From Vicingaceae bacterium (GTDB lineage Bacteria > Bacteroidota > Bacteroidia > Flavobacteriales_E > Vicingaceae), in the NCBI GenBank assembly GCA_018402765.1, contig JAGYIE010000002.1, positions 496,001 to 560,000 of the forward strand: 64,000 nt of DNA. The letters are read 5' to 3'. Below are positions 8,201 to 63,371 of this stretch, piece by piece. Position 1 is the first letter of the stretch, and every line of letters starts with the position of its first letter. The notes beneath the pieces are model-generated. The model saw only the letters and a list, made by a program, of their open reading frames with translations, had not been told where the DNA came from and did not search any database. The position numbers and the translations under genes are program-made.

Positions 8201-10802
8201 AGATACTTCTGAGTTTATTGAATTCTTAAATGTTGGTGCTACTTCCGTTGATTTAACCGGATATAGCTTTTCACAAGGCGTAACACATACTTTTACAAGT
8301 GGGCTTGTTGCTCCTGGAGATTATTTTGTAATTGCTTATGATTCCACTGCTTTTAGAAATACATTTGGAGTAGGGGCAGATTTTCAATGGACTTCAGGAG
8401 GGTTAAGTAACGGAGGAGAGGATATTGTCTTAATAGATAATTTCGGAAGAACGGTTGACTCTGTAGATTATGACGATGGAGGCTTATGGCCATCAGGTTC
8501 CGGAGCAGGACAACCTGATGGAGGTGGAGCATCTATTGTATTATGTGATTCTACTTTAGATAATAATTTGGGTTCATCTTGGAGTGCAGCTATTTCTCCT
8601 ATTTCAGGAAAAGTAGTGAATGGTTTCCAAATTTTTGCTAACCCCGGCGCGAAAGGGATCTGTTCTTTACCGATGTCTATTGCTATGGTGTTAGATTCAA
8701 ATGTAACTTGTAATGCAGGTGCTAGTGGAGGTGCTTCTGTAAACGTAACTGGTGGATTAGCTCCATTTACTTATGCTTGGTCTAACTCTGCAACTACTGC
8801 ATCCATTGCGGGTATTGCCGCAGGGACGTATTTTGTCACTGTAACTGATGCATTAAGCGCAAGCTTAAATGACAGCATAACAATAACGGAACCAACTGCA
8901 ATTTCAGTAACCGATATTATTACTAATGCTTCTGCAAATGGATTGACTGATGGAGCAATAGATATTACGACCTCGGGTGGTACAAGTCCATATTCATACT
9001 TGTGGAGCAATACTGCAACAACGGAGGATATTACAGGAGTAGGAGCAGGATCGTATACACTAACTGTAACAGATGCAAATTTATGTACTTCAGTGAATAC
9101 TTATACTATTTCACAACCTACTACTTTTGCTATAATTGATACTATTACGAATGTAAGTTGCAATGCAGGTACTGATGGTAATATAGCTTTGACTGTGTCA
9201 GGAGGAATCTCTCCATATACATTCTTATGGAATAATACTGCTATAACTTCTAATATTACAGGTTTATCTGCAGGTAATTATAACGTAACTGTAACAGATG
9301 CAAATTCTGCTACAGCTACTGCTAGCTATACAGTTACTGAGCCAACAGCAATAGCAATAACTGGTGCGGTAAGTAATGCAACAACTAATGGAGGGTCCGA
9401 TGGATCTATAGTAGCTTCTGCTACAGGTGGAACAAGTCCTTATGCCTTTCTGTGGAGTAATTCAGCAATTACGGATACTGTTTCTAATTTATCAGCCGCT
9501 ACTTATTTCTTGACCGTTACAGATGCTAATTTATGTACAAAAATTGACTCTTTTGTAGTAGGTCAGCCTGCAGGAGCTTTAGCTAATCTAATAATTACAG
9601 AGATAAATTATAATGGCCCTGAGGTAGGAACGGATACTTCGGAATTTATAGAATTTGTGAATGCTGGAACCACCGCTGTCGATTTGACCGGATATAGCTT
9701 TGTAGAAGGAGTAACTTTTACCTTCCCGCCTAGCTCGATAGCTCCTGGCCAATATATGGTTGTTGCTTTTGATTCCTCAGGGTTTAGAAATACTTTTGGA
9801 TTTAATGCAGACTTTGTTTGGACATCAGGAGGCTTAAGTAATGGTGGTGAAGATATTACAATAGTAGATAATTTTAATAGAACAGTTGATTCTGTAGATT
9901 TTGATGATTCAGCTCCTTGGCCTGCAGGATCTGCAGCAGGTCAGCCAGACGGAGGAGGAGCCTCTATAGTACTATGTGACTCTACTACTGATAATAATGT
10001 TGGATCAAATTGGTTCGCAGCGACATCTCCTGTAAATGGTGTAATTGTTAACGGACTTCAGGTATTTGCCAATCCAGGTGTGGGAGCTCCTTGTGTTCAA
10101 CCCTTGGTAGCTACTATTGCAATTGATTCAAATGTTACATGCAATAATGGGACAAATGGAGGATTATCGGTAAATCTATTAAGTGGAGCCGCTCCTGTTA
10201 CTTACTCATGGAGTAACTCAGCTACCACAGCTTCGATTACAGGTCTTTCAGCAGGAACCTATACGGTAACAGTGACTGATGGAAATTCAGCAACTTTAGT
10301 TGATAGTGCAACTATTACAGAGCCTATCGCGATATCATTTACATCGACGGTTGTTGATCAAACTGCTGCAGGTAATGATGGATCAATTGATATCACAGTT
10401 GTAGGTGGCACTGCACCATATATGTTTTTATGGAATACAGCTGATACAACTGAGGATATTTCAGGATTGAATGCAGGTGTATATACATTAACCATTACAG
10501 ATACCAATAATTGTGTTTTTGTTGATTCTGTAACAGTAGGATTGAGTATAGGTATTGAAGAAGTTTCACTAGAGAATAGCGTAATGATTTACCCTAATCC
10601 TTCAATAGGGTTAATAACTGTTGAAAGTTTAGCTCACTATGATCAGGTAAACATTTTTGATATCACAGGTAAAGTTATTTTTACTACCAATGTTTATGAA
10701 ATGCGAAATGTAATTGACTTAACTAATAATAAAGGAGGGGTATACTTCATATCTATCCAAGGAGAGTCTGGTCGAGTAATGAAGAAAGTGATCATTCATT
10801 AA
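5265..10802 (+). CDS. Giant T9SS-exported adhesin with SprB repeats and lamin-tail domains
   Basis: A 1845-residue cell-surface protein. It has an N-terminal signal peptide (MKKILLSVLFASSVLFNNVLEAQ region), then a lamin-tail-like domain (about 25-200, FFSEYIEGSSNNKAIEIYN). Ten SprB repeats of about 75 residues follow (about 206-955), each with CNG..DG, a LWSN core and GTYTVTVTDA. A second lamin-tail domain (about 960-1130), four more SprB repeats, a third lamin-tail domain (about 1439-1610) and two final SprB repeats come next. The C-terminus (from about 1775, MIYPNPS, ending VMKKVIIH) is a type A T9SS sorting domain. SprB-type proteins act in gliding and adhesion in Flavobacterium. The adhesive role here is inferred. 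Protein SprE, needed for T9SS, is encoded at 18283. A strong terminator follows. Confidence 0.93.
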   Translation: MKKILLSVLFASSVLFNNVLEAQCTDLFFSEYIEGSSNNKAIEIYNPTNTKIGLDNYQVRLYANGNSSPNSTQSFASTDSIDAFGVYVLSNSSAALSGITSNSNKTSSATNYNGDDAVELYKISTTSSIDIIGVIGTDPGSSWPINGTNAISGSTANNTLVRDPSVQQGQLNWVTGSSEWLVFTIDMVDSLGGHSSVCAVPSAPAPSVSAVGTNVSCNGAADGSIDLSVSGGTAPYTFLWSNASTTEDITGLVSGTYTVTVTDAVSSTITSSTTITEPAAITITISEISPVSCNGNNDGILSASASNGAGGYSYAWSNNITTATNLNVGVGTYTVTVTDANSCTKTESYTLNGPAAIGITSIVTNVSANGATDGAIDISITNGIAPLAYAWSNSATTEDLSGLSGGTYTVTVTDAGSCSNTASFTVVEPAVLTASIASQNNVACNGGLTGSLTATASGGTSPYTYLWSNGSPTDTTLSLAAASYTVTVTDANSITATVSATITEPTSIVGSGIVTNVSINGGSDGAVDLTVSGGVAPYSFLWSNAAITEDITNVSAGSYNVTITDANTCTITNNFTVNQPTTLNLTTTKTDALCNGAAAGAIDLTVSGGSTPYTFVWSNAATTEDLVGLLAGTYTVTVTDAFSITATTSATITEPTAIVTSVGVDSNISCNSFSDGGLSASATGGIAPYSFVWSNAATTASITGVASGTYTVTISDANNCTSVGSGTITQPAALVASVAVDSNVSCNGFADGGLSASANGGTAPYNYLWSNAATTASITGVVPGTYTVTISDANNCSTASSGTITQPAALVASVFVDSNVTCNGFSNGGLTASASGGISPYNYSWSNAVTTTSITGVGAGTYTVTITDANNCSTTSSGIITEPLALLLSNVSTNVTTNGGSDGSIDLTVSGGTVPYVFNWSNSAITEDITGLSAGTYTVTVTDNNSCTSSTNVIITQPAGSLAELIITEIMYNGPEAGTDTSEFIEFLNVGATSVDLTGYSFSQGVTHTFTSGLVAPGDYFVIAYDSTAFRNTFGVGADFQWTSGGLSNGGEDIVLIDNFGRTVDSVDYDDGGLWPSGSGAGQPDGGGASIVLCDSTLDNNLGSSWSAAISPISGKVVNGFQIFANPGAKGICSLPMSIAMVLDSNVTCNAGASGGASVNVTGGLAPFTYAWSNSATTASIAGIAAGTYFVTVTDALSASLNDSITITEPTAISVTDIITNASANGLTDGAIDITTSGGTSPYSYLWSNTATTEDITGVGAGSYTLTVTDANLCTSVNTYTISQPTTFAIIDTITNVSCNAGTDGNIALTVSGGISPYTFLWNNTAITSNITGLSAGNYNVTVTDANSATATASYTVTEPTAIAITGAVSNATTNGGSDGSIVASATGGTSPYAFLWSNSAITDTVSNLSAATYFLTVTDANLCTKIDSFVVGQPAGALANLIITEINYNGPEVGTDTSEFIEFVNAGTTAVDLTGYSFVEGVTFTFPPSSIAPGQYMVVAFDSSGFRNTFGFNADFVWTSGGLSNGGEDITIVDNFNRTVDSVDFDDSAPWPAGSAAGQPDGGGASIVLCDSTTDNNVGSNWFAATSPVNGVIVNGLQVFANPGVGAPCVQPLVATIAIDSNVTCNNGTNGGLSVNLLSGAAPVTYSWSNSATTASITGLSAGTYTVTVTDGNSATLVDSATITEPIAISFTSTVVDQTAAGNDGSIDITVVGGTAPYMFLWNTADTTEDISGLNAGVYTLTITDTNNCVFVDSVTVGLSIGIEEVSLENSVMIYPNPSIGLITVESLAHYDQVNIFDITGKVIFTTNVYEMRNVIDLTNNKGGVYFISIQGESGRVMKKVIIH
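5881..8145 (+). repeat. Ten tandem SprB-repeat units, first block
   Basis: Units of roughly 220-230 bp recur inside the adhesin gene. Each carries the coding pattern for a W-S-N core and a TYTVTVTDA strand. Neighbouring units are similar but not identical, with the closest resemblance among the units at about 7240-7920 (TTASITGV pattern repeated). Such arrays expand and contract by recombination. Confidence 0.85.
8150..10095 (+). repeat. Duplicated lamin-tail modules flanking four SprB repeats
   Basis: The coding stretches at about 8150-8670 and 9580-10095 encode two lamin-tail domains that are clearly duplicates. Shared runs include TDTSEFIEF, DLTGYSF, WTSGGLSNGGED, TVDSV and GQPDGGGASIVLCDST. 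Four SprB units lie between them. The third lamin-tail domain, at the N-terminus, is much more divergent. This points to a block duplication inside the gene. Confidence 0.85.
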
Positions 10803-27669: not shown

Positions 27670-30600
27670 ATGAGAAAAAAATCCTTTTTATTTAAATTGG
27701 CTTTATTGATAGAATTGATTCTATTCTTATTATTAGTCTTACCCAAAAGTTGGATTAATCAGCAATACGGAAAGGTTCAATTAGCGATTGCCAAGGAAAA
27801 CTTTTTAGACTTAGAGGTTGAAGCAAGGAAGAACCTGGAAAATATGGTTCATTTCAAAGAATTAAGTGATTCTATAAACGATGGCTTAATTAGTTATTAT
27901 CTATTTACTGATGATTCCCTTGTATATTGGTCAAACAATAATGCAAGTATTAATGCAACTTTAAGCAAAACTGATATTGATAAGAAAGTTTTGTTACTTG
28001 ATGATGGATATTACTATTGTCAAAAAATTGTAAATCAAAAACATGTAGCCGTTTCAGCATTATTATTACAACAGCAGTATTTTCATAATAACGCGTATTT
28101 ACAAAACGGATTTACATTAAATAAGAATCTGGCCAAGTTGTATTCAATAGATACAACAGCAAATGAGGGAATTAAATTTAAGAATACCAATGAATCAGTT
28201 GTGTTTTCTATACAATCTGATTTGCCAAATGTAGAATTTCAATCGATAAGAGACTGGCAGGTGGGTGTGTACTTTATGGCCACGGTATTCTTTCTATTTA
28301 GTTTAGTTCAGTGGATACAACATAGACCCATCTATTGGTATGCCGGAGCTACATTCTTATTGATTAGTTTAAGATGGGTTAGTTATTATTTTCATTTTCC
28401 AGAATTTTTATACCGGTCAGATTTATTTAGCCCCAAAATATTTGCAATGAATGAATGGTTACCTAATCTAGGTGATACTATACTTCATTTGTTGTATGCA
28501 TTCACAATTTTGTGGCTTACCGTGTTACGTCTAGTAAGAAAAAAACTCAAAGCGCTTGGCTATATATTATTAGTTGTTTCGATATTTATTTTTGGTGCTT
28601 TCATCACTTACTTATTTAGAGGGTTAGTTATTAGCTCTACGATTAGTTTCGATTTGAGCAATTTATACTCACTAAACCTATATAGTTATTTAGGATTATT
28701 AGTGATGTGTTTTCTTCTATGTGCTATTTTTTTATTCATTTTTAGCGTGTTTAGCCAAAATAGAATGGTGTTTTCTCAAAGTGTTTTGGTTTTAATATTG
28801 TTAGGAATTTTAAACTATACTTTTCAATATTACTTAGGAGAAAGAAACATTATCTTCATCAATTGGCCATTTATATTTATGCTTTTTGTTGCAACCATTC
28901 AGCGATATTATAAAGGCAGGTATAATTTAACTCGTTCCTTATTTTTAATAGTAGTGTTGAGTTTTATTTCATCATATATTATTCTCCACCAGACTGCCCT
29001 AAAGGAGAGAAGGAATATGGCAGTAATGGCTCAAAAATTATCTGAAGAAAAGGATGTCATTGCTGAATATCTCTTTGCTAAGAGTGCGGAGAGAATGAAA
29101 AGTGATTCAATTCTTACGTCAATGATCAGGCAATACTGGGAAAATCCAATTGCTGTTAATGACTATATTACTTCTAACTACTTTAAAGACTTTTGGCAAG
29201 GATATAAATTACAATTTACATTTTGCACTCCTGATGATCGATTGTTTGTACAACCGGATAATCTAGAATTAAATTGTTTGCAGTTTTTTGATGAGCGAAT
29301 TGAAAAGCAGGGTAGCCCGACAGGCAGTTATCCACTTTTCTTAATGCAGTCAGAAACAGGTCAGATTTCCTATTTAAGTCGAATAGCTTTTGAAGTGGAT
29401 TCTACTCAGATTTATTTTTTCGCTGAATTCAATAACAAACGACTAATTGAAAATGAAGGATATCCAGAGCTATTGTTAGACCAAAAAGAGATTAGTAGAT
29501 CTATCAATTTAGGGGAGCTTTCTTTTGCAAAGTATGAGGATAATGAATTAGTGGCCAGTGCAGGAGATTATTCTTTTTCCTTCATTATCGATTCCATACC
29601 TGTAGAGGTAGGAGGGGTTTTAAAAATTAAAGATCAATCACATAATCACTTGTATTACAAGACTAGTTCATCTACAATATTGGAGTTAGTCGGACAAAGT
29701 AACGATTGGTTGAGTGCGTTTACAACTTTCTCGTATGTATTTACGATAATGGCGTCATTGATTGTGCTCATTGCTTTGGTAGCAAAAAAATTTCCCATTC
29801 AATTGGAATGGAGAATAACAGACTTTACAACTAAAATACAGTTGTTTATTATTGGAATTCTACTGTTATCGATAGGAATGTTTAGCGTCGCTTCAACTTA
29901 TTACATTAAAAAGCAGTATCGCTCTAAAAACGATAAGAATATCTCAGAGAAATTACGCTCAGTGCTTATAGAAGTCAACCAAAAATTAGGTGATGAAAAA
30001 GTGTTGAATAGCTCACTTTCTGAGTATATGACGCAAGTTTTGGTAAAGTTCTCAAATGTATTTTATACAGATATTAACTTGTACGGCTCCGATGGGAATT
30101 TAATAGCAACATCCAGACCTGAGATATTTGATATAGGACTTAAAGCACCATTAATGGATGCTAAAGCTTATTACATGATGGCGAAGAAGAAAAAGCGCAA
30201 CTTCATAAATAATGAGCACATTGGTCAGCTTAGCTATTTATCTGCCTATGTTCCCTTTTTCAATAATGAGGGTAAATTTTTAGCGTATTTGAATTTACCC
30301 TACTTCGCTAAGCAAAATGAGTTAGAGGAAGAGATTTCTAGTTTTTTAGTAAGTAGTATAAATATTTATGTAGTTATTTTCTGTTTCTCAATAATTCTTT
30401 CTGTCATTTTTGCGAATTACATTTCTAAGCCTCTTCAGTTATTAAAAGAGAATATATCTAAAGTAAATATTGGGTCTACAAATGAAATTATTGAATGGGA
30501 AGGAAGTGATGAGATTAGTAGTTTGGTGAAAGAGTACAATCGAATGGTAGTAAAGCTTGCTGATAGCGCAGATTTATTAGCTCGTACCGAACGTGCAGGA

Positions 30601-31266
30601 GCATGGAAGGAAATGGCTAAACAAGTAGCCCATGAAATAAAGAATCCATTGACGCCTATGAAGTTAAGTATTCAATACCTAAAGAGAGCTTCTGATGATC
30701 AACGAGCAGATTTAGCTCAACGAATAGATAAAACTACCGAAACGCTAATTCAACAAATTGATGCACTTGCTCAAATTGCTGATGAGTTTTCGAATTTTGC
30801 AAAAATGCCTGAGGCCCAAAAGCAGACCCTTGATTTTCTGCCAATTCTTAGCAATGCGGTTAATTTATATGATGAATTAGAGAATATTTCGTTAGAAACA
30901 GATTTGATTCAAACTAGTGTTTCTGTTGATAAAGACCAATTGTTGCGAGTTTTCAATAATATCATAAAAAATGGTTTTCAAGCAGTACCTAAAAATAGAA
31001 CACCAAAGATTTTAATAACTGCAGCTTTAGATGAATTGACAAATAATTACCAAATTAGAATTGAGGATAATGGACAGGGGATTTCTCCCTCTGATTATCA
31101 TCGTATTTTTGTACCTAACTTCACATCAAAATCTAGTGGAATGGGATTAGGATTAGCAATTGTAAAAAATATAATCGAACAATCCAATGGACGAGTATAC
31201 TTCGAGAGTGAACTAGGTGTAGGGACTACTTTTATCATAGTTTTACCCCGAGTAGCTGAAGAATAA
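27670..31266 (+). CDS. NtrY-like membrane sensor histidine kinase
   Basis: A 1198-residue multi-pass kinase. One N-terminal helix (about 8-25) and a periplasmic domain (to about 195) are followed by a cluster of membrane helices (about 200-440), a second extracytoplasmic sensor (about 445-680), further helices near 690 and 725, a double-Cache-like region (about 755-895), a helix near 900, and HAMP. The kinase core has the H box QVAHEIKNPLTPMKLS (His about 988), N box NNIIKNGFQAV, G1 DNGQGI and G2 GMGLGLAIVKN, all intact. The PLTPMKLS form is typical of NtrY relatives. No response regulator is adjacent, so its partner is unknown. Confidence 0.9.
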   Translation: MRKKSFLFKLALLIELILFLLLVLPKSWINQQYGKVQLAIAKENFLDLEVEARKNLENMVHFKELSDSINDGLISYYLFTDDSLVYWSNNNASINATLSKTDIDKKVLLLDDGYYYCQKIVNQKHVAVSALLLQQQYFHNNAYLQNGFTLNKNLAKLYSIDTTANEGIKFKNTNESVVFSIQSDLPNVEFQSIRDWQVGVYFMATVFFLFSLVQWIQHRPIYWYAGATFLLISLRWVSYYFHFPEFLYRSDLFSPKIFAMNEWLPNLGDTILHLLYAFTILWLTVLRLVRKKLKALGYILLVVSIFIFGAFITYLFRGLVISSTISFDLSNLYSLNLYSYLGLLVMCFLLCAIFLFIFSVFSQNRMVFSQSVLVLILLGILNYTFQYYLGERNIIFINWPFIFMLFVATIQRYYKGRYNLTRSLFLIVVLSFISSYIILHQTALKERRNMAVMAQKLSEEKDVIAEYLFAKSAERMKSDSILTSMIRQYWENPIAVNDYITSNYFKDFWQGYKLQFTFCTPDDRLFVQPDNLELNCLQFFDERIEKQGSPTGSYPLFLMQSETGQISYLSRIAFEVDSTQIYFFAEFNNKRLIENEGYPELLLDQKEISRSINLGELSFAKYEDNELVASAGDYSFSFIIDSIPVEVGGVLKIKDQSHNHLYYKTSSSTILELVGQSNDWLSAFTTFSYVFTIMASLIVLIALVAKKFPIQLEWRITDFTTKIQLFIIGILLLSIGMFSVASTYYIKKQYRSKNDKNISEKLRSVLIEVNQKLGDEKVLNSSLSEYMTQVLVKFSNVFYTDINLYGSDGNLIATSRPEIFDIGLKAPLMDAKAYYMMAKKKKRNFINNEHIGQLSYLSAYVPFFNNEGKFLAYLNLPYFAKQNELEEEISSFLVSSINIYVVIFCFSIILSVIFANYISKPLQLLKENISKVNIGSTNEIIEWEGSDEISSLVKEYNRMVVKLADSADLLARTERAGAWKEMAKQVAHEIKNPLTPMKLSIQYLKRASDDQRADLAQRIDKTTETLIQQIDALAQIADEFSNFAKMPEAQKQTLDFLPILSNAVNLYDELENISLETDLIQTSVSVDKDQLLRVFNNIIKNGFQAVPKNRTPKILITAALDELTNNYQIRIEDNGQGISPSDYHRIFVPNFTSKSSGMGLGLAIVKNIIEQSNGRVYFESELGVGTTFIIVLPRVAEE

Positions 31267-39272: not shown

Positions 39273-42200
39273 ATGGAGATGAAAAATTATAGGTTTTTCT
39301 TTTATATTACAATGATCTTTATTGTTAGCATAGCAAACGCTAATAATATAAAATTTCAAACACTTACAACTTCTGACGGACTTTCTCAAAGTTCGATAAA
39401 TGTGATACTGCAAGACCAGTCAGGGTTTATGTGGTTTGGCACACAAAACGGACTCAATAAATATGATGGTTATCAATTTGATAACTATAAAATGAGCCTA
39501 AATGATTCAAATACAATAGGAGGAAATAAAATCAATGATATTATACAAACCTCCGACGGACTCATTTGGATTGCAAATGAAACCGGTATATCGTCCTATT
39601 GCTCCAAAAAATTAGCCTTTTCAAATTACTTATTTGACTCATTAACATCTGAAGTAAAAGAGATACAACAAATCGTTTCCTTAGACAGCACACACTTGCT
39701 TTTATTAGCTAACCATCATATTATTGAATTTGATACTAAAGAGAAAAAGGCAAGATTGTTTTGGACGCCTTCTTCTAGAAATATTAAGTTAAGACAACTA
39801 AAAAAATGGAAAGGTCAGCTATATGTAACTACTGAGAATAGTTCTTACAGACTTGAAGAGACAAAAGGAATCATTCAAAGTTATCTTCTTATTTCAAATA
39901 TATCAGGAGGGTTTGTTGGTTTTGCAGAATCAGACTCACACTTCTATGCGTATTCATCTAATCAATTGTTCGAGTTAAACGAAAACCATGGATTTACCTA
40001 TAAGTTTGATTTATTTCCAAATTTAGATCAAGAATCTTTAGTTGCCTCTGATTTGCACTTTGATAAAAGGAATAAACTTTGGATTGGGACAACATCATCG
40101 GGCCTGTTTAGGTATGATTTAAAAACAAAGCAGGTAAATCAGTATGTTCACTCCTCTAATTTGTCTTCATCCATTAGCTCTAACACAATTTTGAGTATAA
40201 CTTCGGATAATACTGGTATACTTTGGGTAGGGACACGCTTCGGAATTAATAAATTCGATAGCGAACGTCAAAACTTTAATCATTATCAAATAGTTTCAGA
40301 TGATGAGTCTGTTGATAACAGTAAAGTCTGGTCAATTTACTCCAATAAATCCCAAATTGTTTGGATTGGAGGGGATAATGGATTGTCTAAGTTTAATCTT
40401 GTAAACAACAGCATTTCTACTTTTAAGCCCCAATTATCAGGGGTTTATGAAAGTAATGGTATTTATGCTATAGAACCTTACGAGGATGGGTTTTTAGTAG
40501 GAACAGAGGAAGGCTTCAAAAAGTTTGATACAATAAGCAACACATTCGTTTCTTTTGATCATCCTCAAAATAAAGGGAGAACATACAGTATTATAAAAAT
40601 GAATAACGGGGACTATTACATTGGAAACCGATTGGGATTACTTAAATACGAAAATACGCAAAAGATAACCTATTTTAATGATCAATCAATTGATATTGAA
40701 TCTTCAGAAAGGGCAAATATTGTTAGATGTATAAAAAAAGTTAATGAGAAGCTACTTTGGCTAGGCACAGAAGAAGGCATAGTTAGCTTTCATACAGTTA
40801 AGGTAAATCCATTTAAGTCAAGAATTTCATATCCAAAAATACCGGATAACTTTATAACAACTCTATGGTTTACAAAAAATAACCTTTGGTTTGGAACTAC
40901 AACTTCGGGAATGTTTAAAATGAATTTGGATAATTTCTCTCTTGAAAGTATTTCAGAAATAGATGGATTAAGTAATAATGCAATTAATAGTATTATAGGG
41001 GATGATCAAAATAATTTATGGATTTCAACAAACAAAGGGCTTAGTAGATACAATATCGGGAGTAAGTTGATTACCAATTTTAATGAAACAGATGGGTTAC
41101 AGAACAATGAGTTTAACTCAAATGCAGGCTTTAAGTCGAATAAATTAGAGTTGTATTTTGGAGGTATTGATGGATTTAATTTATTCACAGCAAATGAAAT
41201 AGCAATAAATAAGAATCCTCCAAAAATGGTAATTACTGGATTTAACTTGTTTAATAAACCGGTTGCAGTATCCGATAGTGGAATTTTACAACAAAATATT
41301 GCTGCTACCCGAAAAATAGATTTATCCTATGACCAAAAAGTAATCTCTTTTGAATTTGCAGCATTGCATTATTCCAATCCTAAAAAGAATAATCATGCCT
41401 ACATGTTAGAGGGTTTTGATAAAGATTGGGTTTATATTGAAAACTCAAGAATTGCGACGTATACTAATCTAAACTCAGGAGATTACATCTTTAAAGTTAA
41501 GGGGAGCAATAGTGATGATATTTGGAGTGAGCCAATTGAAATTCAACTTACGATTCACCCTCCATTCTGGGAAACTTGGGTTTTTAGAATTTTAGTTGTT
41601 GCTTCTGTTTTAGGATTGATTTTTTGGTATTACAGAAGCCGATTAAGAAGAGTTAGCCAGCAGAAAAAACTACTTGAATCTCAGGTAAAACACCGAACAA
41701 TTGAGATTATTAAACAAAAAGAAGAGGTAGAGATTCAAAAGCGATTAGTTGAGGAAGAAAAGGAAAAAACGGAGAAGCTTCTGCTCAATGTTTTACCAAA
41801 GGAAACAGCAGAGGAGCTAAAAAATAGAGGAAGGTCAAAGGCACGAAGTTATAAAAGAGCTACAGTTATGTTCACCGATTTTATAGGCTTTACTCAGATT
41901 GCAGAAAACTATAAGCCACAAGATTTAGTAGCCAAATTGGATAGTTTCTTCATTAAATTTGATGAGATTACAGAAAAGTATGATATTGAAAAGATTAAAA
42001 CGGTAGGTGATGCATACTTGTGTGCAGGAGGGTTGCCAATTAGAAATAAGAGTAATCCGATAGATACGGTTTTAGCAGCCTTACAAATTCAAAAGGTTAT
42101 GCAAGAAACCGCTGTAGAAATGACTCAAAAAAATGAGGAACCTTGGGAATTAAGAATAGGAATTCATACAGGAGATTTAATTGCAGGTGTGGTTGGAATA

Positions 42201-43079
42201 AAACGTTTTGCATATGATATTTGGGGCGATACCGTAAACATTGCAAGTCGATTAGAGACAGCTTGTGAGTCAGGAAAAATAAACATTTCAGGTACTACCT
42301 ACGAGGCTGTAGCAGAATTTTTTGAATGTGAATATAGAGGGAAAATACCCGCAAAGAATAAAGGTGAGATAGATATGTATTATGTCTATCGAGTTAAGCC
42401 TGAATTGTCTGAAAATGAAGATGGATTAACTCCCAATGAGGCTTTTGAGCATTATGTAAACTTAAAGCTATACAGTAATATAAATTATAGGAATGCAGAA
42501 AAGTATATTATAAAAAGATTATCAGATGAGCTTCCTGATGGCTTATTTTACCACGGTATTCACCATACGAAGGACGTTTGTGAAAGTGTAGAAAGACTAG
42601 CTATTTGGGAAGGAATAAGAGGAGAGGAGTTGTATTTATTAAAAACTGCTGCTTTATTTCATGATGCAGGGTTTATTGAATCTTATGAGAGTAATGAGCC
42701 TATCGGTGCCCAAATGGCCAAAGAAATGTTACCAAGTTTTGGATATACAGAAGAACAAATTGAACTTGTTAACAGACTTATAGAGGCTACAAAAGTTCCG
42801 CATAATCCACAAAGCCATTTGGAAGAATTAATGTGTGATGCAGATTTAGATTATTTAGGGAGGAATGACTTTTATCTCAAAGCCGATACATTAAAAAAAG
42901 AATTGATTAAATTTGGAAAACTTAAAGCAGAAAAAGACTGGGACTTTTTACAAGTTAAGTTCTTGACTATGCATAAGTACTTCACTAAATCTGCAAGACA
43001 AAGAAGAGACCCCGAAAAACAAAAAAGAATTATCGAATTAAAGAAAGTATTAAAAAAGTATGAAGAGGGGACAGCTTAG
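39273..43079 (+). CDS. Propeller-sensor adenylate cyclase with C-terminal HD phosphohydrolase domain
   Basis: A 1268-residue one-protein receptor. Signal peptide (about 1-24); a two-component-regulator propeller domain (about 25-650) with repeated WFGT/WIGT-G-L blades such as GFMWFGTQNGLNKYDG; a Y_Y_Y domain (about 680-760); one membrane helix (about 765-785); a coiled coil (about 790-850); a class III cyclase domain (about 862-1015) with FTDFIGFT and TVGDAY metal aspartates, the Lys of EKIKTVGD, YDIWGDTVNIASR carrying the adenine-selecting Asp and the catalytic Asn/Arg; and an HD domain (about 1060-1200) with HGIHHTKD, LFHDAGF and CDADLDYLG. Cyclase residues point to cAMP. A second start at 39279 is possible. 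Confidence 0.93.
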   Translation: MEMKNYRFFFYITMIFIVSIANANNIKFQTLTTSDGLSQSSINVILQDQSGFMWFGTQNGLNKYDGYQFDNYKMSLNDSNTIGGNKINDIIQTSDGLIWIANETGISSYCSKKLAFSNYLFDSLTSEVKEIQQIVSLDSTHLLLLANHHIIEFDTKEKKARLFWTPSSRNIKLRQLKKWKGQLYVTTENSSYRLEETKGIIQSYLLISNISGGFVGFAESDSHFYAYSSNQLFELNENHGFTYKFDLFPNLDQESLVASDLHFDKRNKLWIGTTSSGLFRYDLKTKQVNQYVHSSNLSSSISSNTILSITSDNTGILWVGTRFGINKFDSERQNFNHYQIVSDDESVDNSKVWSIYSNKSQIVWIGGDNGLSKFNLVNNSISTFKPQLSGVYESNGIYAIEPYEDGFLVGTEEGFKKFDTISNTFVSFDHPQNKGRTYSIIKMNNGDYYIGNRLGLLKYENTQKITYFNDQSIDIESSERANIVRCIKKVNEKLLWLGTEEGIVSFHTVKVNPFKSRISYPKIPDNFITTLWFTKNNLWFGTTTSGMFKMNLDNFSLESISEIDGLSNNAINSIIGDDQNNLWISTNKGLSRYNIGSKLITNFNETDGLQNNEFNSNAGFKSNKLELYFGGIDGFNLFTANEIAINKNPPKMVITGFNLFNKPVAVSDSGILQQNIAATRKIDLSYDQKVISFEFAALHYSNPKKNNHAYMLEGFDKDWVYIENSRIATYTNLNSGDYIFKVKGSNSDDIWSEPIEIQLTIHPPFWETWVFRILVVASVLGLIFWYYRSRLRRVSQQKKLLESQVKHRTIEIIKQKEEVEIQKRLVEEEKEKTEKLLLNVLPKETAEELKNRGRSKARSYKRATVMFTDFIGFTQIAENYKPQDLVAKLDSFFIKFDEITEKYDIEKIKTVGDAYLCAGGLPIRNKSNPIDTVLAALQIQKVMQETAVEMTQKNEEPWELRIGIHTGDLIAGVVGIKRFAYDIWGDTVNIASRLETACESGKINISGTTYEAVAEFFECEYRGKIPAKNKGEIDMYYVYRVKPELSENEDGLTPNEAFEHYVNLKLYSNINYRNAEKYIIKRLSDELPDGLFYHGIHHTKDVCESVERLAIWEGIRGEELYLLKTAALFHDAGFIESYESNEPIGAQMAKEMLPSFGYTEEQIELVNRLIEATKVPHNPQSHLEELMCDADLDYLGRNDFYLKADTLKKELIKFGKLKAEKDWDFLQVKFLTMHKYFTKSARQRRDPEKQKRIIELKKVLKKYEEGTA

Positions 43080-43208
43080 TTTAAGTTGAAAAAGTATTCT
43101 TTAGAATTATTTATTGTGTATTTAATTAGTGAGTAAAATTGTTTCAAAATCAAACTCATTTTTATATTATTGTACACTGAATCCCGACCTCATCGTAAAA
43201 GATGTATT

Positions 43209-44012
43209 ATGAAAAAAAGTCTTGTCATTACTGCATTGTTTCTTCTTACGCTAGTTTCAGTTTTTGCTGAAAATTCTGGTAATGTTGTTGTAGAAGGACA
43301 TTATCAAGGAAAAAACTTATTCATCAAAAATTCATTTGGTGGATCAGGTGTAGGGTTTTGTGTTTATGAAATTACGGTAAATGGAGAACTTTCTACAGAT
43401 GAAATTAACTCTAGCGCTTTTGAAATTGACTTCAACAATTTTAATCTTAAAATTGGAGATCCACTTTTAGTTACTATCAAGCATAAAAAGGATTGTGAGA
43501 TTCAAGTGCTGAATCCTGATGTATTGAAACCAAAAGCTACTTTCAATACAGGCGAAATATCATTTAATAACCATGGTGTATTAAGTTGGAATGCTTCAAA
43601 TGAGACTGGAGCTATGGACTATATAGTTGAGCAGTTTAGATGGAATAAATGGGTGAAAGTAGGTGAGGTTAGAGGTAAAGGAGTTCCTGGAAAACATGAT
43701 TACTCGTTCAAAATAACCCCGCATTCAGGAATAAATAAAGCAAGAGTAAAGCAAGTAGATTATACCGGAAAGCCAAGATTTTCTCCTGCAGTAGAGTATA
43801 ATGCAGATGTAGCTGAGATATCGTTAGAGGGTAAAACAAAATTTAAAGATGAAATAGTTTTTACAAATGGGGAAACATTATACGAGGTCTATGATAAGTA
43901 TGGTAATATCGTAAAAAGAGGATTTGGAGATAAAGCAAATGTTACTTCTTTGGAAAAAGGAACCTACTATTTAAGCTACGATAACAAAACGGAAACGATT
44001 GCCATTAAGTAG
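43209..44012 (+). CDS. Secreted protein with a reduced T9SS-like tail
   Basis: A 267-residue protein starting at ATG 43209, which places signal peptide MKKSLVITALFLLTLVSVFA at the N-terminus; an in-frame upstream ATG would put 13 basic residues before it. The middle looks like beta-sandwich domains (KPKATFNTGEISFNNHGVLS). The last 50 residues (LYEVYDKYGNIVKRGFG ... LEKGTYYLSYDN) follow the strand pattern of T9SS type A tails but lack the YPNP opening. A promoter-like TTG (43139-43141) with TATTATTG (43165-43172) lies upstream. Function unknown. Confidence 0.75.
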   Translation: MKKSLVITALFLLTLVSVFAENSGNVVVEGHYQGKNLFIKNSFGGSGVGFCVYEITVNGELSTDEINSSAFEIDFNNFNLKIGDPLLVTIKHKKDCEIQVLNPDVLKPKATFNTGEISFNNHGVLSWNASNETGAMDYIVEQFRWNKWVKVGEVRGKGVPGKHDYSFKITPHSGINKARVKQVDYTGKPRFSPAVEYNADVAEISLEGKTKFKDEIVFTNGETLYEVYDKYGNIVKRGFGDKANVTSLEKGTYYLSYDNKTETIAIK

Positions 44013-51794: not shown

Positions 51795-54700
51795 TTAGAA
51801 GAATGCTCTAAGTTGCATTCCTCCGGTATGTATTGTTGAAATATTTTCGGATTTACGACCGCTATAGTTAACACTTAATTGCAAAACTTTAGATAGGTTT
51901 CGTTGTAGGTTAAAGCTCCAAGTGGTATTCCCACCAGCTTGAAGTCCTTCTAAAATCTCAAATGATAAGGCGCTATTCGATCCACCATTAAAGTCGATTG
52001 AAATGTAGCGAATGTCAATGGTCATTGTGCCTTTTCCGGCTTTGCTGTATTGCATTTCTGTACCAATTGTTCTGCTAAAAGCTCGTTCTACTCCAAGTGT
52101 GTTATTTTTATCGGAATATGATCCAATAAGGCTTAATCTAAAGCTAACTCCTGGCTGGTAACTTATTTTAGGTTCTATTTCAAAGCTCTCGATATCGTAA
52201 TTCCTATTTGAGAATAATTCTGATGTATTTGATTTTTGATTCCAGCCAATCACGTTATTTACAGTAATTGTATTGGAGGCGTTGTATCTACTTCTTATCT
52301 CTCTATTGGTGCTCGATCTGCTCTCTACACCATTTGTAAGTAGACTTTTACTTTTATTGGTTTGAAAAAATAAATCAGTTCCAAATTTAGTCCCTAATCT
52401 ATTGATATAAAATGTATTTGATATTGTAGAGCTAACAGATACAAGCGTAGAGTCTTCGATTGGTGTAGCGAATGGATTGTATATATCACTGTTTCTGCTG
52501 GTCTTTCGTTCTGCCCGGTATGCAGTTTTGTTAGAGAATTTTGAAAGTAGGGCCAATACTCCTTTTTTATCATTAAGCAGAACCTCAGGACGTATAAATA
52601 GCACCTGATTAAATTGATTACTATATACCTTAACATATTCATTTGTAGGAGTAAATATGCGAATATAATTTGCTTGGAATACATTGTTTTCACCTGCTAC
52701 TTCAAATTCATTTAACTCTTTAATGCCATTACTATTGTAATCATTCCATAAATAAACCCCTTGGCCATCCGCTACTCTTAAGTATGAAAATTCTCGCTTG
52801 TTTTCTAAACCTGAACTAATTTCATAAAACGTATTCGCGCTTACAAATCCCTTTAGTGCTTTTGCATCATATTCTAATCGACCAATCAGTGTATTTTCAG
52901 GAGTAAGGTTAGATAAAGAAGAATCTACTAGTTGTAATCTTCTATAGGTAGCTTGTCCTTTTAATCGACTTCTTGCGTCTTTTGCTAATAAAAAAAGTAG
53001 ACTAAAATCTTCTGCTTTATTTGCTAAGTCTAATCGTGTGTCATTGGGTAAATAATCAAACCGTTGAGTATAGCTAATTTCATAACTATTGGTTGTGGTA
53101 TCTGCCGTTCTAATAAATGCTTTCCACTCAAGCTTATCGTTACTTGCTGCGCTAATTTTGTTATTGTCTAGTCTAAAAAGTGCTTTTTCCTGATCGCCAT
53201 ACACACCTACTATAAACTGCTTAATATCTTTAGTAATGGTGGTGTAGTGGCGTAAAAAATAGGAATCACTTAACCCTTCTGTGGTTAGAAAGCTACCGTT
53301 TGATTTTATGGTGTAACCATTATTTTTGTATGAACCCTGAAACGCATGCTTAACTCCTTGATAATTTTTTTCATTTAAAAAGAATCCTAAATTATATATC
53401 AGTTTACCACGATTACTAAACTCAAGACCTGTATATGCATTACCTAATTGTTGTGTTCCGTTTATTGCAAGGGTAGTTAAGTTCCAATCACGCTCAAACT
53501 CTACATCTCTGTAACGTTCAATAGGTTTAAAATTAGCTCCGCGTTGTTCATAGTGAAATCCTCCAAGAAATGAGGTTCTATTTTTTTCTTTTCCTCCAAT
53601 TATTGATTTGTGATCAAGTTGTATATCGAATCCGTACCCATCGTCATCTGCTGCATCTTTAGAAGAAAATGTATTTTTATCTAATTTGGTAACAGCTCCT
53701 TCAACATTAATAGTAGTCGTTTTTCTGATCTTATAAGTTGCTCCAAATGTTGCCATTTGAGTTCTTTTTGGACTTATGAGTTGAATAAATGGTATAAAGT
53801 TACCTTGACTTACTCCTGCGACTGGCTCTACCCATTTAAAAACTCGACCATTAGCAGCGCTTTGAATTCGCACATAATCACCTTCTCCAAAGTTAACTTC
53901 TGAAAATTGAACCCTATATTTTGCGCTATCCGGATTAGTAGAATAGACAAGTATATCCGAATACCCTAATGTATCTATTTGCTTGTAAAGAACTTGATCG
54001 TTTATAAATTCGTCTACTGTATCTAATCCCGAAACGAGTGCATCATTTAAACTATCTCCAATTTGGCTTAACAAGAGCTTATCTGCATCGCTTAATTCTT
54101 GAAGAAGTGGTTGTTGCTTATTGTCTTGTTCTGAATAGATATTTAAGCGAAGGGATAAGTTTTTCTTTTCAAATGTCTGATTGGTGTAAATTAAAGAACG
54201 AGCATAATTTCTTTCAGCATACTGAAACTCCGCTATTATTCGAGAGTCCTTTGTGATTAACCTGTTGGGTGTAAATGTAATTTCGCCTGTGTTATAATCG
54301 ATAATGTAATCAAAGTCTTGACCTCTTTTCATTAGTTGGCCATTTAGAAATATTTTCTCTGTTCCAGACAAAATGATAATAAATGTTTCGTTTTCTGCTC
54401 CTCTAAGTCGATATGGACCTTGATTTCCTTCTGTCCCTATTCCTCCATTTGGCTGTGTACTACCCAATACATTTCTAGCAAATTTTCCTCTAGAAACAGC
54501 AGCACTAAATTCTGAAGTTAGCACTGCTCTATTCTCTAACTTTTTATCAATTTCTTTATCTAAAAAAAATCGCGCTTTAATACTTCCACCTTGAACTTTT
54601 TTATCAAAATTCATAAAATAGCTATTGGGTCGTTGCATTCTAAAGTCACCTGCGGTTAATTCAAATTGCTCATTATATAATTGTATAAATACTTGGTCAA

Positions 54701-55289
54701 ATTCACGAAGTTGCTGCGTATTTCCTTCAGCTTGAATAGGTATGTTGTCGTCACTAATGGCAGCCTTAATACTAATATCTTCCGTTAATTTACCTGACAG
54801 TTGTAAATCTAAGTTAGAGTTTACTGAAAGGTTTTGATTGTTTCCGAAGGCAATACCTCTTGAGATACTTCCACTTTTATTTAATCCTCCCAAGTCAAAT
54901 TCATTTCCTTTGTTCTCGTCAGGTCTGATGCTGTAGAAATTTGGTCTACCTGGATCCTCTAACTGAATGCTTGAAATGTTCTTATTCTGATAAACAGCAT
55001 TGAAATTAAAATCGATTATTCGATAAGAGGCGGTGACTGTTTTAGACAAAAGAGATGAGTCTAAAATGATAAGTTTTGCATTCACGTAATCAATTTTATA
55101 TTGACTACTATTTATTCTCTTAGTGTTGATAAACAGAATTTCGCTATTATTTACTAGCGGAAAGCTGTCTATTGTTAGCGTATCATTTACTATCTCAATG
55201 TCTTTTTCTACGAATGTAGATAGTCGCTGACCCACACCTTCAATGCATAGTAGAAGCAGAAATACAGAAAGAAGGCAGTAAATTTTCAA
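51795..55289 (-). CDS. Large outer-membrane beta-barrel protein of unknown function
   Basis: A 1164-residue protein with signal peptide (MKIYCLLSVFLLLLCIEGVG region) and C-terminal phenylalanine (QLRAFF), as in outer-membrane barrels. Residues about 20-130 form a beta domain. Family segments follow: LGGLNKSGSISRGIAFGNNQ, AAISDDNIPIQAEGNTQQL, ELTAGDFRMQRPNSYFMNFD, and DYNTGEITFTPNRLITKDSR. The rest (about 360-1164) is long amphipathic strands. The middle motif resembles parts of SprA-like or usher-like barrels, but I do not identify it as SprA. Export of a substrate is a guess. Confidence 0.82.
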   Translation of the reverse strand: MKIYCLLSVFLLLLCIEGVGQRLSTFVEKDIEIVNDTLTIDSFPLVNNSEILFINTKRINSSQYKIDYVNAKLIILDSSLLSKTVTASYRIIDFNFNAVYQNKNISSIQLEDPGRPNFYSIRPDENKGNEFDLGGLNKSGSISRGIAFGNNQNLSVNSNLDLQLSGKLTEDISIKAAISDDNIPIQAEGNTQQLREFDQVFIQLYNEQFELTAGDFRMQRPNSYFMNFDKKVQGGSIKARFFLDKEIDKKLENRAVLTSEFSAAVSRGKFARNVLGSTQPNGGIGTEGNQGPYRLRGAENETFIIILSGTEKIFLNGQLMKRGQDFDYIIDYNTGEITFTPNRLITKDSRIIAEFQYAERNYARSLIYTNQTFEKKNLSLRLNIYSEQDNKQQPLLQELSDADKLLLSQIGDSLNDALVSGLDTVDEFINDQVLYKQIDTLGYSDILVYSTNPDSAKYRVQFSEVNFGEGDYVRIQSAANGRVFKWVEPVAGVSQGNFIPFIQLISPKRTQMATFGATYKIRKTTTINVEGAVTKLDKNTFSSKDAADDDGYGFDIQLDHKSIIGGKEKNRTSFLGGFHYEQRGANFKPIERYRDVEFERDWNLTTLAINGTQQLGNAYTGLEFSNRGKLIYNLGFFLNEKNYQGVKHAFQGSYKNNGYTIKSNGSFLTTEGLSDSYFLRHYTTITKDIKQFIVGVYGDQEKALFRLDNNKISAASNDKLEWKAFIRTADTTTNSYEISYTQRFDYLPNDTRLDLANKAEDFSLLFLLAKDARSRLKGQATYRRLQLVDSSLSNLTPENTLIGRLEYDAKALKGFVSANTFYEISSGLENKREFSYLRVADGQGVYLWNDYNSNGIKELNEFEVAGENNVFQANYIRIFTPTNEYVKVYSNQFNQVLFIRPEVLLNDKKGVLALLSKFSNKTAYRAERKTSRNSDIYNPFATPIEDSTLVSVSSTISNTFYINRLGTKFGTDLFFQTNKSKSLLTNGVESRSSTNREIRSRYNASNTITVNNVIGWNQKSNTSELFSNRNYDIESFEIEPKISYQPGVSFRLSLIGSYSDKNNTLGVERAFSRTIGTEMQYSKAGKGTMTIDIRYISIDFNGGSNSALSFEILEGLQAGGNTTWSFNLQRNLSKVLQLSVNYSGRKSENISTIHTGGMQLRAFF

Positions 55290-61469: not shown

Positions 61470-63371
61470 ATGAGTGATTCAATTAAACACGAGTGCGGAA
61501 TTGCCCTCATTCGACTTCTCAAACCTCTTGATTATTATCTGGAGAAATACGGTACAGCAACCTACGGAATCAATAAGCTTTATCTTTTGATGGAAAAACA
61601 ACATAACCGCGGGCAAGATGGTGCGGGCGTTGCCAATATTAAGTTTGATATGAAACCTGGAGAGCGTTACATCAGTCGACACCGATCGAATAGTGGCAAA
61701 CCCATTCAAGATGTTTTTGATAAGATTAATGGAGCTATTCAGGATGTCTATGATAAAAATCCTGAATTGTTAAAAGATACTGACTGGCTAAAGAAGAATG
61801 TTGGATTTACAGGAGAGTTGTATTTAGGACACCTGAGATATGGAACTTTTGGTAGAAATAGTATTGAAAATTGCCATCCATTTTTACGTCAAAACAACTG
61901 GATGACCAGAAACTTAGTGGTAGCCGGAAATTTCAACCTGACAAACGTAGATGAGTTGTTTGATTTGCTTGTTAACATAGGTCAGCATCCAAAGGAGATG
62001 TCAGATACAGTTACTGTATTAGAAAAAATTGGACACTTTTTAGACGAGGAAAACAACAAGTTATTTAGAGAATATAAGGCACTTGGCTATTCAAATGAGG
62101 AAATATCTTCCATGATTGCCAAGAAACTCGACGTTCAATCAATTCTAAAAAATGCTGCTTTAGATTGGGATGGTGGATACGCAATGGCTGGATTAATGGG
62201 ACATGGAGATGCTTTTGTTTTAAGAGACCCTTCAGGAATTAGACCTGCTCACTACTATCAAGATGATGAGGTCGTGGTTGTTACATCTGAGCGACCTGCA
62301 ATTCAAACCGCATTCAATGTGCCATTTGAATCCATAAAAGAGATAAAACCTGGGCATGCATTAATAATCAAAAAAGACGGCACAGTTGCACAGCAGCTTG
62401 TTCGTGAGCCATTAGAAGAAAAGCAGTGTTCATTTGAGCGTATCTATTTCTCCAGAGGAAGTGATGCGGATATATATAAAGAGCGAAAAGAATTGGGTCG
62501 TTCTATAACTCCTGAGGTGTTGAAAAGCATCAATTATGATGTGGACAATACCGTGTTTTCATTTATTCCAAATACTGCTGAAACAGCTTTCTACGGTATG
62601 GTGAAGGGCATGGAAGATTATATCAATCAAAATAAGTTAAAGGAAATTAGAGCACTAGGTCCTGATGCTACGGATGAACAATTAACTGAAGTACTCTCTA
62701 AGCGCGCAAGAGCTGAAAAAATTGCTATTAAAGATGCCAAACTTAGAACGTTTATTACACAAGATAGCGGTCGCGATGACTTAGTGGCTCATGTTTATGA
62801 TGTAACGTATGGAGCTATTCACATAGGTAAAGATAACTTGGTAGTGATTGACGACTCCATTGTTAGAGGAACTACATTAAAACAAAGCATTTTCAGAATT
62901 CTAGATCGACTAGGGCCTAAGAAGATTGTTATAGTTTCTTCTGCACCTCAAATTCGTTATCCAGATTGCTACGGAATTGACATGGCGAAATTGGGCGATT
63001 TTATAGCTTTTGTGGCAGCCATTACTTTATTAAAAGAGAAAGGCAAGGATGCTATTATAACAGACGTCTACAAAAGATGTAAAGCACAAGTAAACTTACC
63101 AAAAGAAGAAATCCGCAATTACGTAAAAGAAATTTATGCACCATTTACTGCTGAACAAATTTCCGATAAGATTAGCGAATTATTAAGACCCGAAGGCATT
63201 AATGCTGAGGTGCAGGTAATTTATCAAACAATTGAGGGTCTTCATAAAGCAATACCAAATCATAGAGGAGATTGGTATTTTACCGGTGACTATCCAACTC
63301 CAGGAGGGAATAAAGTGGTGAACAAAAGTTTCATAAATTATGTGGAAGGTAAGAACGAAAGGGCATATTAA
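61470..63371 (+). CDS. purF: Amidophosphoribosyltransferase (long Bacteroidota form)
   Basis: A 633-residue enzyme of the first committed purine step, making phosphoribosylamine from PRPP and glutamine. The glutaminase nucleophile is Cys9 (HECGIALIRL), followed by KQHNRGQDGAGVAN and LGHLRYGTFG. The PRTase PRPP loop is VVIDDSIVRGTTLKQS. It is about 130 residues longer than E. coli PurF, with extra segments in the glutaminase half (about 75-110 and 180-220) and a C-terminal extension. Long forms like this occur in Bacteroidota, often next to a shorter purF elsewhere. Confidence 0.9.
   Translation: MSDSIKHECGIALIRLLKPLDYYLEKYGTATYGINKLYLLMEKQHNRGQDGAGVANIKFDMKPGERYISRHRSNSGKPIQDVFDKINGAIQDVYDKNPELLKDTDWLKKNVGFTGELYLGHLRYGTFGRNSIENCHPFLRQNNWMTRNLVVAGNFNLTNVDELFDLLVNIGQHPKEMSDTVTVLEKIGHFLDEENNKLFREYKALGYSNEEISSMIAKKLDVQSILKNAALDWDGGYAMAGLMGHGDAFVLRDPSGIRPAHYYQDDEVVVVTSERPAIQTAFNVPFESIKEIKPGHALIIKKDGTVAQQLVREPLEEKQCSFERIYFSRGSDADIYKERKELGRSITPEVLKSINYDVDNTVFSFIPNTAETAFYGMVKGMEDYINQNKLKEIRALGPDATDEQLTEVLSKRARAEKIAIKDAKLRTFITQDSGRDDLVAHVYDVTYGAIHIGKDNLVVIDDSIVRGTTLKQSIFRILDRLGPKKIVIVSSAPQIRYPDCYGIDMAKLGDFIAFVAAITLLKEKGKDAIITDVYKRCKAQVNLPKEEIRNYVKEIYAPFTAEQISDKISELLRPEGINAEVQVIYQTIEGLHKAIPNHRGDWYFTGDYPTPGGNKVVNKSFINYVEGKNERAY

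Follow-up and report, generated by a model that had tools for sequence, protein, structure and literature searches.

The 64,000-nucleotide window analyzed here (positions 496,001 to 560,000 of contig JAGYIE010000002.1 from a Vicingaceae bacterium) encodes, at positions 39273..43079 of the forward strand, a receptor of 1268 amino acids. A single open reading frame (ORF) with an ATG start joins its sensor to a class III adenylate cyclase and, at the C-terminal end, to an HD domain. This architecture had been described in an initial annotation of the window, and it was borne out by Pfam searches, residue conservation and an AlphaFold2 (AF2) model. The chain begins with a putative signal peptide (residues 1–23; 39342 is the first position beyond it, the peptide itself being encoded at 39273..39341, forward strand), which was judged by eye from the N-terminal sequence MEMKNYRFFFYITMIFIVSIANA. 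It is followed by a periplasmic Reg_prop beta-propeller region (residues about 24–695; 39342..41357, forward strand) matched by Pfam in three stretches (Reg_prop, 5.7e-23), and by a Y_Y_Y domain (residues 700–761; 41370..41555, forward strand; Pfam 2.7e-17). Hydropathy analysis of the full receptor indicates one membrane helix, with its peak at residues about 765–788 (41565..41636, forward strand). Beyond the membrane, residues 789–856 (41637..41840, forward strand) form a signalling helix or coiled coil, corresponding to helices 2–29 and 32–41 of the cyclase-HD model, that leads into the cyclase domain (residues 857–1038; 41841..42386, forward strand) and then the HD domain (residues 1067–1268; 42471..43076, forward strand). 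The protein had been labeled a cAMP receptor, which is a misnomer, because cAMP would be what this receptor produces and destroys.

The assignment of the cyclase domain is clear. Its Pfam Guanylate_cyc match (7.9e-49) scores 166 bits against a cut-off of 21.9, the nearest solved structures are mammalian adenylate cyclases, and the match to AC9 in the PDB reaches 7e-57. The metal-binding (D869, D913), adenine-selecting (K909, D982) and transition-state (N989, R993) residues are all present, as originally claimed. When the window protein was compared with 80 relatives, D913, K909, D982 and N989 were found in all 81 sequences, D869 in 80 (with one ambiguous residue) and R993 in 75. Judging from these residues, the domain is predicted to make cAMP from ATP. 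A genome search found it to be the sole class III cyclase encoded in its 3.1-Mb genome.

The HD domain is a weaker Pfam match, covering residues 1097–1191 at 3.8e-4 and scoring 21.2 bits, just below the 22-bit cut-off. The call is nonetheless secure because relatives of the protein exceed the cut-off and the AF2 model displays the HD-superfamily fold. The predicted structure is all-helical, with mean confidence values (predicted local distance difference test, pLDDT) of 95.8 for the HD domain and 91.9 for the cyclase-HD portion, and the H...HD...D ligands of the superfamily are in place (H1098, H1130, D1131 and D1191). That these ligands are intact had been noted earlier, and the comparison extends the statement to the whole set, with H1094, H1098, H1130, D1131, E1142, D1189 and D1191 each conserved in 81 of 81 sequences. 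Across a broader set of 187 HD domains from all contexts the ligands are likewise kept, the exception being H64 (in HD-domain numbering) of one standalone protein, and T1173 and W1223 are invariant.

Structure comparison places this domain close to the class I cyclic nucleoside monophosphate (cNMP) phosphodiesterases (PDEs). When the HD model was searched with VIA-align, the best 50 rows (one per entry) were all class I cNMP PDEs, including PDE10A, 7A, 2A, 9A, 5, 6C and RhoPDE, with Z-scores of 16.9–18.1, 189–197 of 202 residues aligned and a root-mean-square deviation of 2.6–3.3 Å. YpgQ-like HD proteins were absent from these best 50 rows, which says nothing about their rank below. Sequence profiles show the PDE similarity mainly around YHN..H...HD. 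HHalign against a PDE4D/PDE10A profile gave a score of 35.6, compared with a maximum of 21.7 for shuffled controls, and placed H28, H32, H64, D65, T107, D125, Q161 and F164 of the HD domain onto the YHN..H, HD, T, D, Q and F positions of PDE4D. The PDE4D and PDE10A sequences used matched solved chains over their full length. An attempt to align PDE sequences to the HD model with hmmalign lost the alignment past the HD motif owing to a long PDE insertion, which HHalign was able to bridge. In the numbering of the window protein these residues are H1094, H1098, H1130, D1131, T1173, D1191, Q1227 and F1230, with Q1227 and F1230 tentatively aligned by HHalign to the invariant substrate-selecting Gln and the Phe clamp of the PDEs. 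The earlier note would have counted an HD domain resembling only unrelated dNTPases against its reading; this is not the case here, as both class I PDEs and YpgQ-type pyrophosphohydrolases align with the domain. The domain is not filed as a member of the PDEase_I family (PF00233), because the cut-off for that family is not reached: the window protein gave no match, and its relatives scored 18.5–22.1 bits against a cut-off of 24.8. Canonical PDEase_I proteins above the cut-off were found in 0 of 198 Bacteroidota genomes.

The initial annotation implied that a cyclase and an HD domain in one chain would be rare. This was rejected by the survey: the cyclase-HD portion was matched in all 46 genomes searched of its family (apparently Vicingaceae, Flavobacteriales), which span 16 genera, and at least 564 places in a species collection encode confirmed relatives, making the unit widespread in Bacteroidota. 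Within the family, 44 of the 46 genomes contain a near-complete protein or a contig-end fragment of one, and in the remaining two (87% and 72% complete) only parts were matched. Both catalytic modules are present at all 80 loci kept for comparison, and the propeller at 61 of them. Among hosts that carry a name, most belong to the Flavobacteriales (Crocinitomicaceae, Cryomorphaceae, Brumimicrobium), with Marinifilum and Labilibaculum also represented; a few host names attached to metagenome-assembled genomes, such as Kuenenia and Planktophila, are probably misassigned. At least five inputs other than the propeller were counted, among them GAF-PAS (L159), kinase-AAA-GAF (L196) and TPR repeats (L073). 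The unit also occurs as a soluble protein with no attached input (L042/L043), and as a short membrane form (L005) encoded directly downstream of a PorE-like OmpA protein (L211–L213). A viral origin of the HD domain, or its use by phages in counter-defense, was set aside: of seven matches on viral contigs only one was a strong relative, the GAF-PAS-cyclase-HD gene at L159:142-2280. It adjoins a RecA-like gene, and its 6.1-kb contig, classed as viral, is possibly a host or prophage-border fragment.

In a phylum-wide sample, many cyclases lack the HD domain and many HD domains lack a cyclase. The HD family (about 30–45% identity) includes standalone proteins of about 190–205 residues, fusions to PycTM or to a YitT/DUF2179 membrane protein, and proteins in which the HD domain follows TPR repeats or a PrmC-type methyltransferase. 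When 103 HD domains were placed in a tree, two clades were resolved with support of 99 on both sides. Clade A contains all 25 cyclase-fused HD domains sampled, seven of eight standalone rows adjacent to a cyclase, and the YitT and TPR forms. The PycTM fusions, all 22 of them, fall in clade B with the PrmC form and the majority of standalone HD domains; one row labeled as a YitT form (L195) is actually a PycTM fusion and is placed there. In PDEs, a Gln at the substrate-selecting position chooses the purine base. The residue aligned with this Gln in the HD family, residue 161, is Gln in 119 and Asn in 13 of 132 clade A domains, and Gln in none of 55 clade B domains.

The clades also differ in their association with cyclases when the HD domain is encoded by a gene of its own. 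With the 4-kb flanks of unfused HD genes as the search space, a class III cyclase was found near 9 of 18 clade A genes and 2 of 38 clade B genes (Fisher p 2e-4), and chance would be expected to account for about 0.2–0.6 of the 18. These loci were picked from the HD-score ranking and not by neighborhood, and clade membership was tallied by hand. In two genomes (L032 and L033) cyclase and HD domain are encoded by separate, overlapping genes, with the cyclase gene running into the beginning of the HD gene. At L203, genes for a response regulator-cyclase, a response regulator and an HD-YitT protein are grouped together. HD fusions to YitT_membrane/DUF2179 were also seen at L176:1501-2958 and L183:610-2064, the latter directly downstream of a response-regulator adenylate cyclase. 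The fold, the HHalign alignment and the Gln marker together give good, if indirect, support for a purine cNMP phosphodiesterase.

Based on these observations, we think the receptor probably makes cAMP and, through its class I PDE-like HD domain, hydrolyzes it, and thereby acts as a local on/off switch. The protein would reside in the inner membrane, where its propeller and Y_Y_Y sensor would bind a ligand in the periplasm. The signal may then pass through the one membrane helix and the coiled coil to alter the cyclase dimer, and the cytoplasmic cyclase would convert ATP to cAMP. The HD domain, as a bacterial relative of class I PDEs, would hydrolyze cAMP to AMP near the site of synthesis. Most likely the sensor sets both activities, or they are held in balance. 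The result would be either a switch that turns sharply on and off or a signal restricted in space; reciprocal control of the two domains by the sensor is suggested by analogy with synthetase-hydrolase proteins. A make-and-break switch had been proposed at the outset, and it is now favored by the conservation of the ligands, the class I PDE fold, the linkage to cyclases even when unfused and the Gln of the clade, but that cAMP is the HD substrate is still something we infer.

Several observations weigh against a cAMP phosphodiesterase and raise the alternative that the HD domain actively hydrolyzes another nucleotide, either as a YpgQ-like dNTP/NTP pyrophosphohydrolase or as an enzyme acting on 2′,3′-cNMP. 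Its union with the cyclase would then control substrate supply or a second metabolite instead of cAMP. The best sequence-profile matches of the domain are generic HD hydrolases, including 2pq7, YedJ, BH2835 and Bacillus subtilis YpgQ. Ordering Foldseek matches by E-value likewise puts 2pq7 and YpgQ-type proteins first (best 1e-3) and PDE5 later (best 1e-2). The corresponding query TM-scores are about 0.57–0.65 for YpgQ-type proteins and 0.59–0.67 for PDE5. Given these better matches, the H..H..HD..D pattern is no proof of a PDE. The same applies to the motif H(X)3H(X)25-35D/E described for class I PDEs (PMC4222275): it is matched by the window protein as H1094-XXX-H1098-X32-D1131, but it is not discriminating because YpgQ-like proteins carry H(X)3H too. 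In the C-terminal half of the PDE alignment, where the Gln and Phe lie, sequence alone does not reach significance, and this half depends on the predicted structure. In addition, 13 fused relatives, all short forms, have Asn in place of the Gln. Genomic linkage can also mislead, as shown by SpdA at a cyaD1 locus of Sinorhizobium meliloti, which was expected to break 3′,5′-cAMP and proved to be a 2′,3′-cNMP hydrolase (PMC4222275). The HD domain of the Escherichia coli tRNA nucleotidyltransferase also acts on 2′,3′-cAMP (cited in PMC4222275). On the other hand, the linkage seen here is specifically with class III cyclases, enzymes that form a 3′,5′-cNMP, the clade-marking Gln and the conserved T107 and F164 fit class I PDE positions, and the HD fold spans the PDE catalytic domain almost from end to end. 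We regard hydrolysis of another nucleotide as unlikely, though it is the alternative we take most seriously.

Two further possibilities were considered. Fused domains are often regulatory, and without some control a chain with two opposing activities would only run a futile cycle. The HD domain might bind cAMP or another nucleotide without breaking it and serve the cyclase as a product-sensing or dimerization domain. Invariant metal ligands and acid His in 80 relatives would be unusual for a non-catalytic HD domain, however, and the domain is also found as a separate gene beside cyclases; a purely regulatory role is accordingly quite improbable in our estimation. It is also conceivable, at a very low probability, that the cyclic nucleotide made by the cyclase is not cAMP but cGMP, or a pyrimidine cNMP like those of Pycsar, and that the HD domain breaks that one instead. 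The cyclase does have PADLOC matches to PycC, but these are weak (1e-14), and in the sister HD clade fusions to PycTM, an effector domain of Pycsar, occur. Set against this are the Lys and Asp typical of ATP-using enzymes, retained in every sequence compared, and the mammalian adenylate cyclases as nearest solved relatives. Membership of the HD domain in a PycTM Pycsar system of the window's own genome was rejected, PycTM being absent from that genome and the cyclase having ATP-type residues.

A receptor that makes and breaks cAMP would call for a reader of the signal, likely one of the CRP-family regulators encoded elsewhere in the genome. The absence of a CRP-type gene from the window, remarked on earlier, was not contradicted, but four CRP/FNR-family proteins are encoded outside it in the same genome. 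The best candidate among them, though a weak one, is G000:C10:242725 (L046), whose cNMP-binding region keeps a GE..R motif as judged by eye. Orthologues of L046 lie 5–7 kb from cyclase-HD genes in five relatives, namely G022 (L259), G024 (G024:C57), G026 (L262), G027 (L257) and G041 (L258). This linkage was found in relatives only, with none in the window's own genome, and the candidacy is weakened by the fact that, with the threshold applied, about 40% of the family genomes lack the gene. In G030 and G035, an L046-type CRP gene was found about 3 kb from an HD-PycTM gene.

The HD-PycTM fusions (about 390–450 residues) are very widespread in Bacteroidota (L175, L177, L179–L181, L185, L188, L191, L192, L195 and others), and could be housekeeping responders to some nucleotide. 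More broadly, and only tentatively, we suggest that Bacteroidota hold a large, unnamed family of compact class I-type PDEs split by signal, with the Gln clade serving class III cyclases and a purine messenger, and the Gln-less clade serving PycTM and other modules and another messenger. On this view a ligand would gate both the making and the breaking of cAMP by the window protein, and its family would provide the cAMP-off enzyme that the phylum has seemed to lack. cAMP signaling in Bacteroidota, including the removal of cAMP, is poorly understood. The conserved two-enzyme receptor offers a direct test case for local on/off control of a bacterial second messenger, and it is a first candidate for a phylum-wide PDE-like HD family that includes the HD half of the HD-PycTM proteins.

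Other genes in the window and around related loci were also noted. Positions 43170-44012, which follow the receptor gene closely and lie on its strand, encode a small, probably secreted protein with no Pfam match that could be co-transcribed with it. At L211, L212, L213, L257 and L262 a PorE-like envelope protein (TPR, PD40, CarboxypepD_reg, OmpA) is encoded directly upstream of cyclase-HD, and PorP/SprF-like genes occur near some of the loci with such a neighbor. Such neighbors point to the cell envelope, type IX secretion or gliding. Elsewhere in the window, positions 5265-10802 encode a likely gliding adhesin, an SprB-repeat protein of 1845 residues that also has lamin-tail domains and ends in a type IX secretion tail. 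Positions 27670-31266 encode a histidine kinase of 1198 residues, of which the first 950 are without a Pfam match at 1e-6. Large ORFs of 1164 and 633 amino acids at 51795-55289 and 61470-63371, respectively, also have no Pfam match at that threshold.

No work characterizing a bacterial cyclase-HD receptor or an HD-PycTM protein was found in the open-access papers searched, and an earlier description elsewhere is possible. The closest functional parallel is CAPE (COMBINED AC with PDE) of Marchantia polymorpha and other streptophytes, for which adenylate cyclase (AC) and PDE activities were demonstrated in vitro with a preference for cAMP over cGMP (PMC5159850, PMC8115329). Both CAPE and the window protein combine a class III AC with a PDE or PDE-like domain of the HD-superfamily fold in one chain, and both are probably membrane-bound. 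However, CAPE is a plant protein with a full class I PDE at its N-terminus and the cyclase at its C-terminus, whereas the window protein has the reverse order, a compact bacterial HD domain of about 200 residues that falls below the PDEase_I cut-off, and an added periplasmic propeller sensor. Because domain order, PDE family and input all differ, the window protein would work like CAPE but is no member of that group. The bacterial cyclase-HD combination probably had a separate origin.

On the input side, the receptor resembles the hybrid two-component systems of Bacteroidota, in which a Reg_prop/Y_Y_Y sensor is joined to a histidine kinase and regulator. They share a similar periplasmic sensor and single-helix transmission with the window protein, but the output of the latter is a cyclase and an HD domain instead of a kinase and a regulator. 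The (p)ppGpp synthetase-hydrolases of the RelA/SpoT type provide a precedent for one chain that makes a nucleotide messenger and breaks it by means of an HD domain; the synthetase is unrelated, the messenger and the HD subfamily are different, and no close homology is claimed. Among proteins with the HD domain itself, YpgQ of B. subtilis (5dqv, 5dqw, 5ihy) and 2pq7 belong to the same superfamily and are among the top profile and Foldseek matches, with sequence matches that cover mainly the metal-binding core (profile positions 13–131). The HD-PycTM proteins have a homologous HD domain (about 30% identity) fused, as here, to a nucleotide-signaling module, but they belong to a separate HD clade with no Gln at residue 161, and a membrane effector takes the place of the cyclase.

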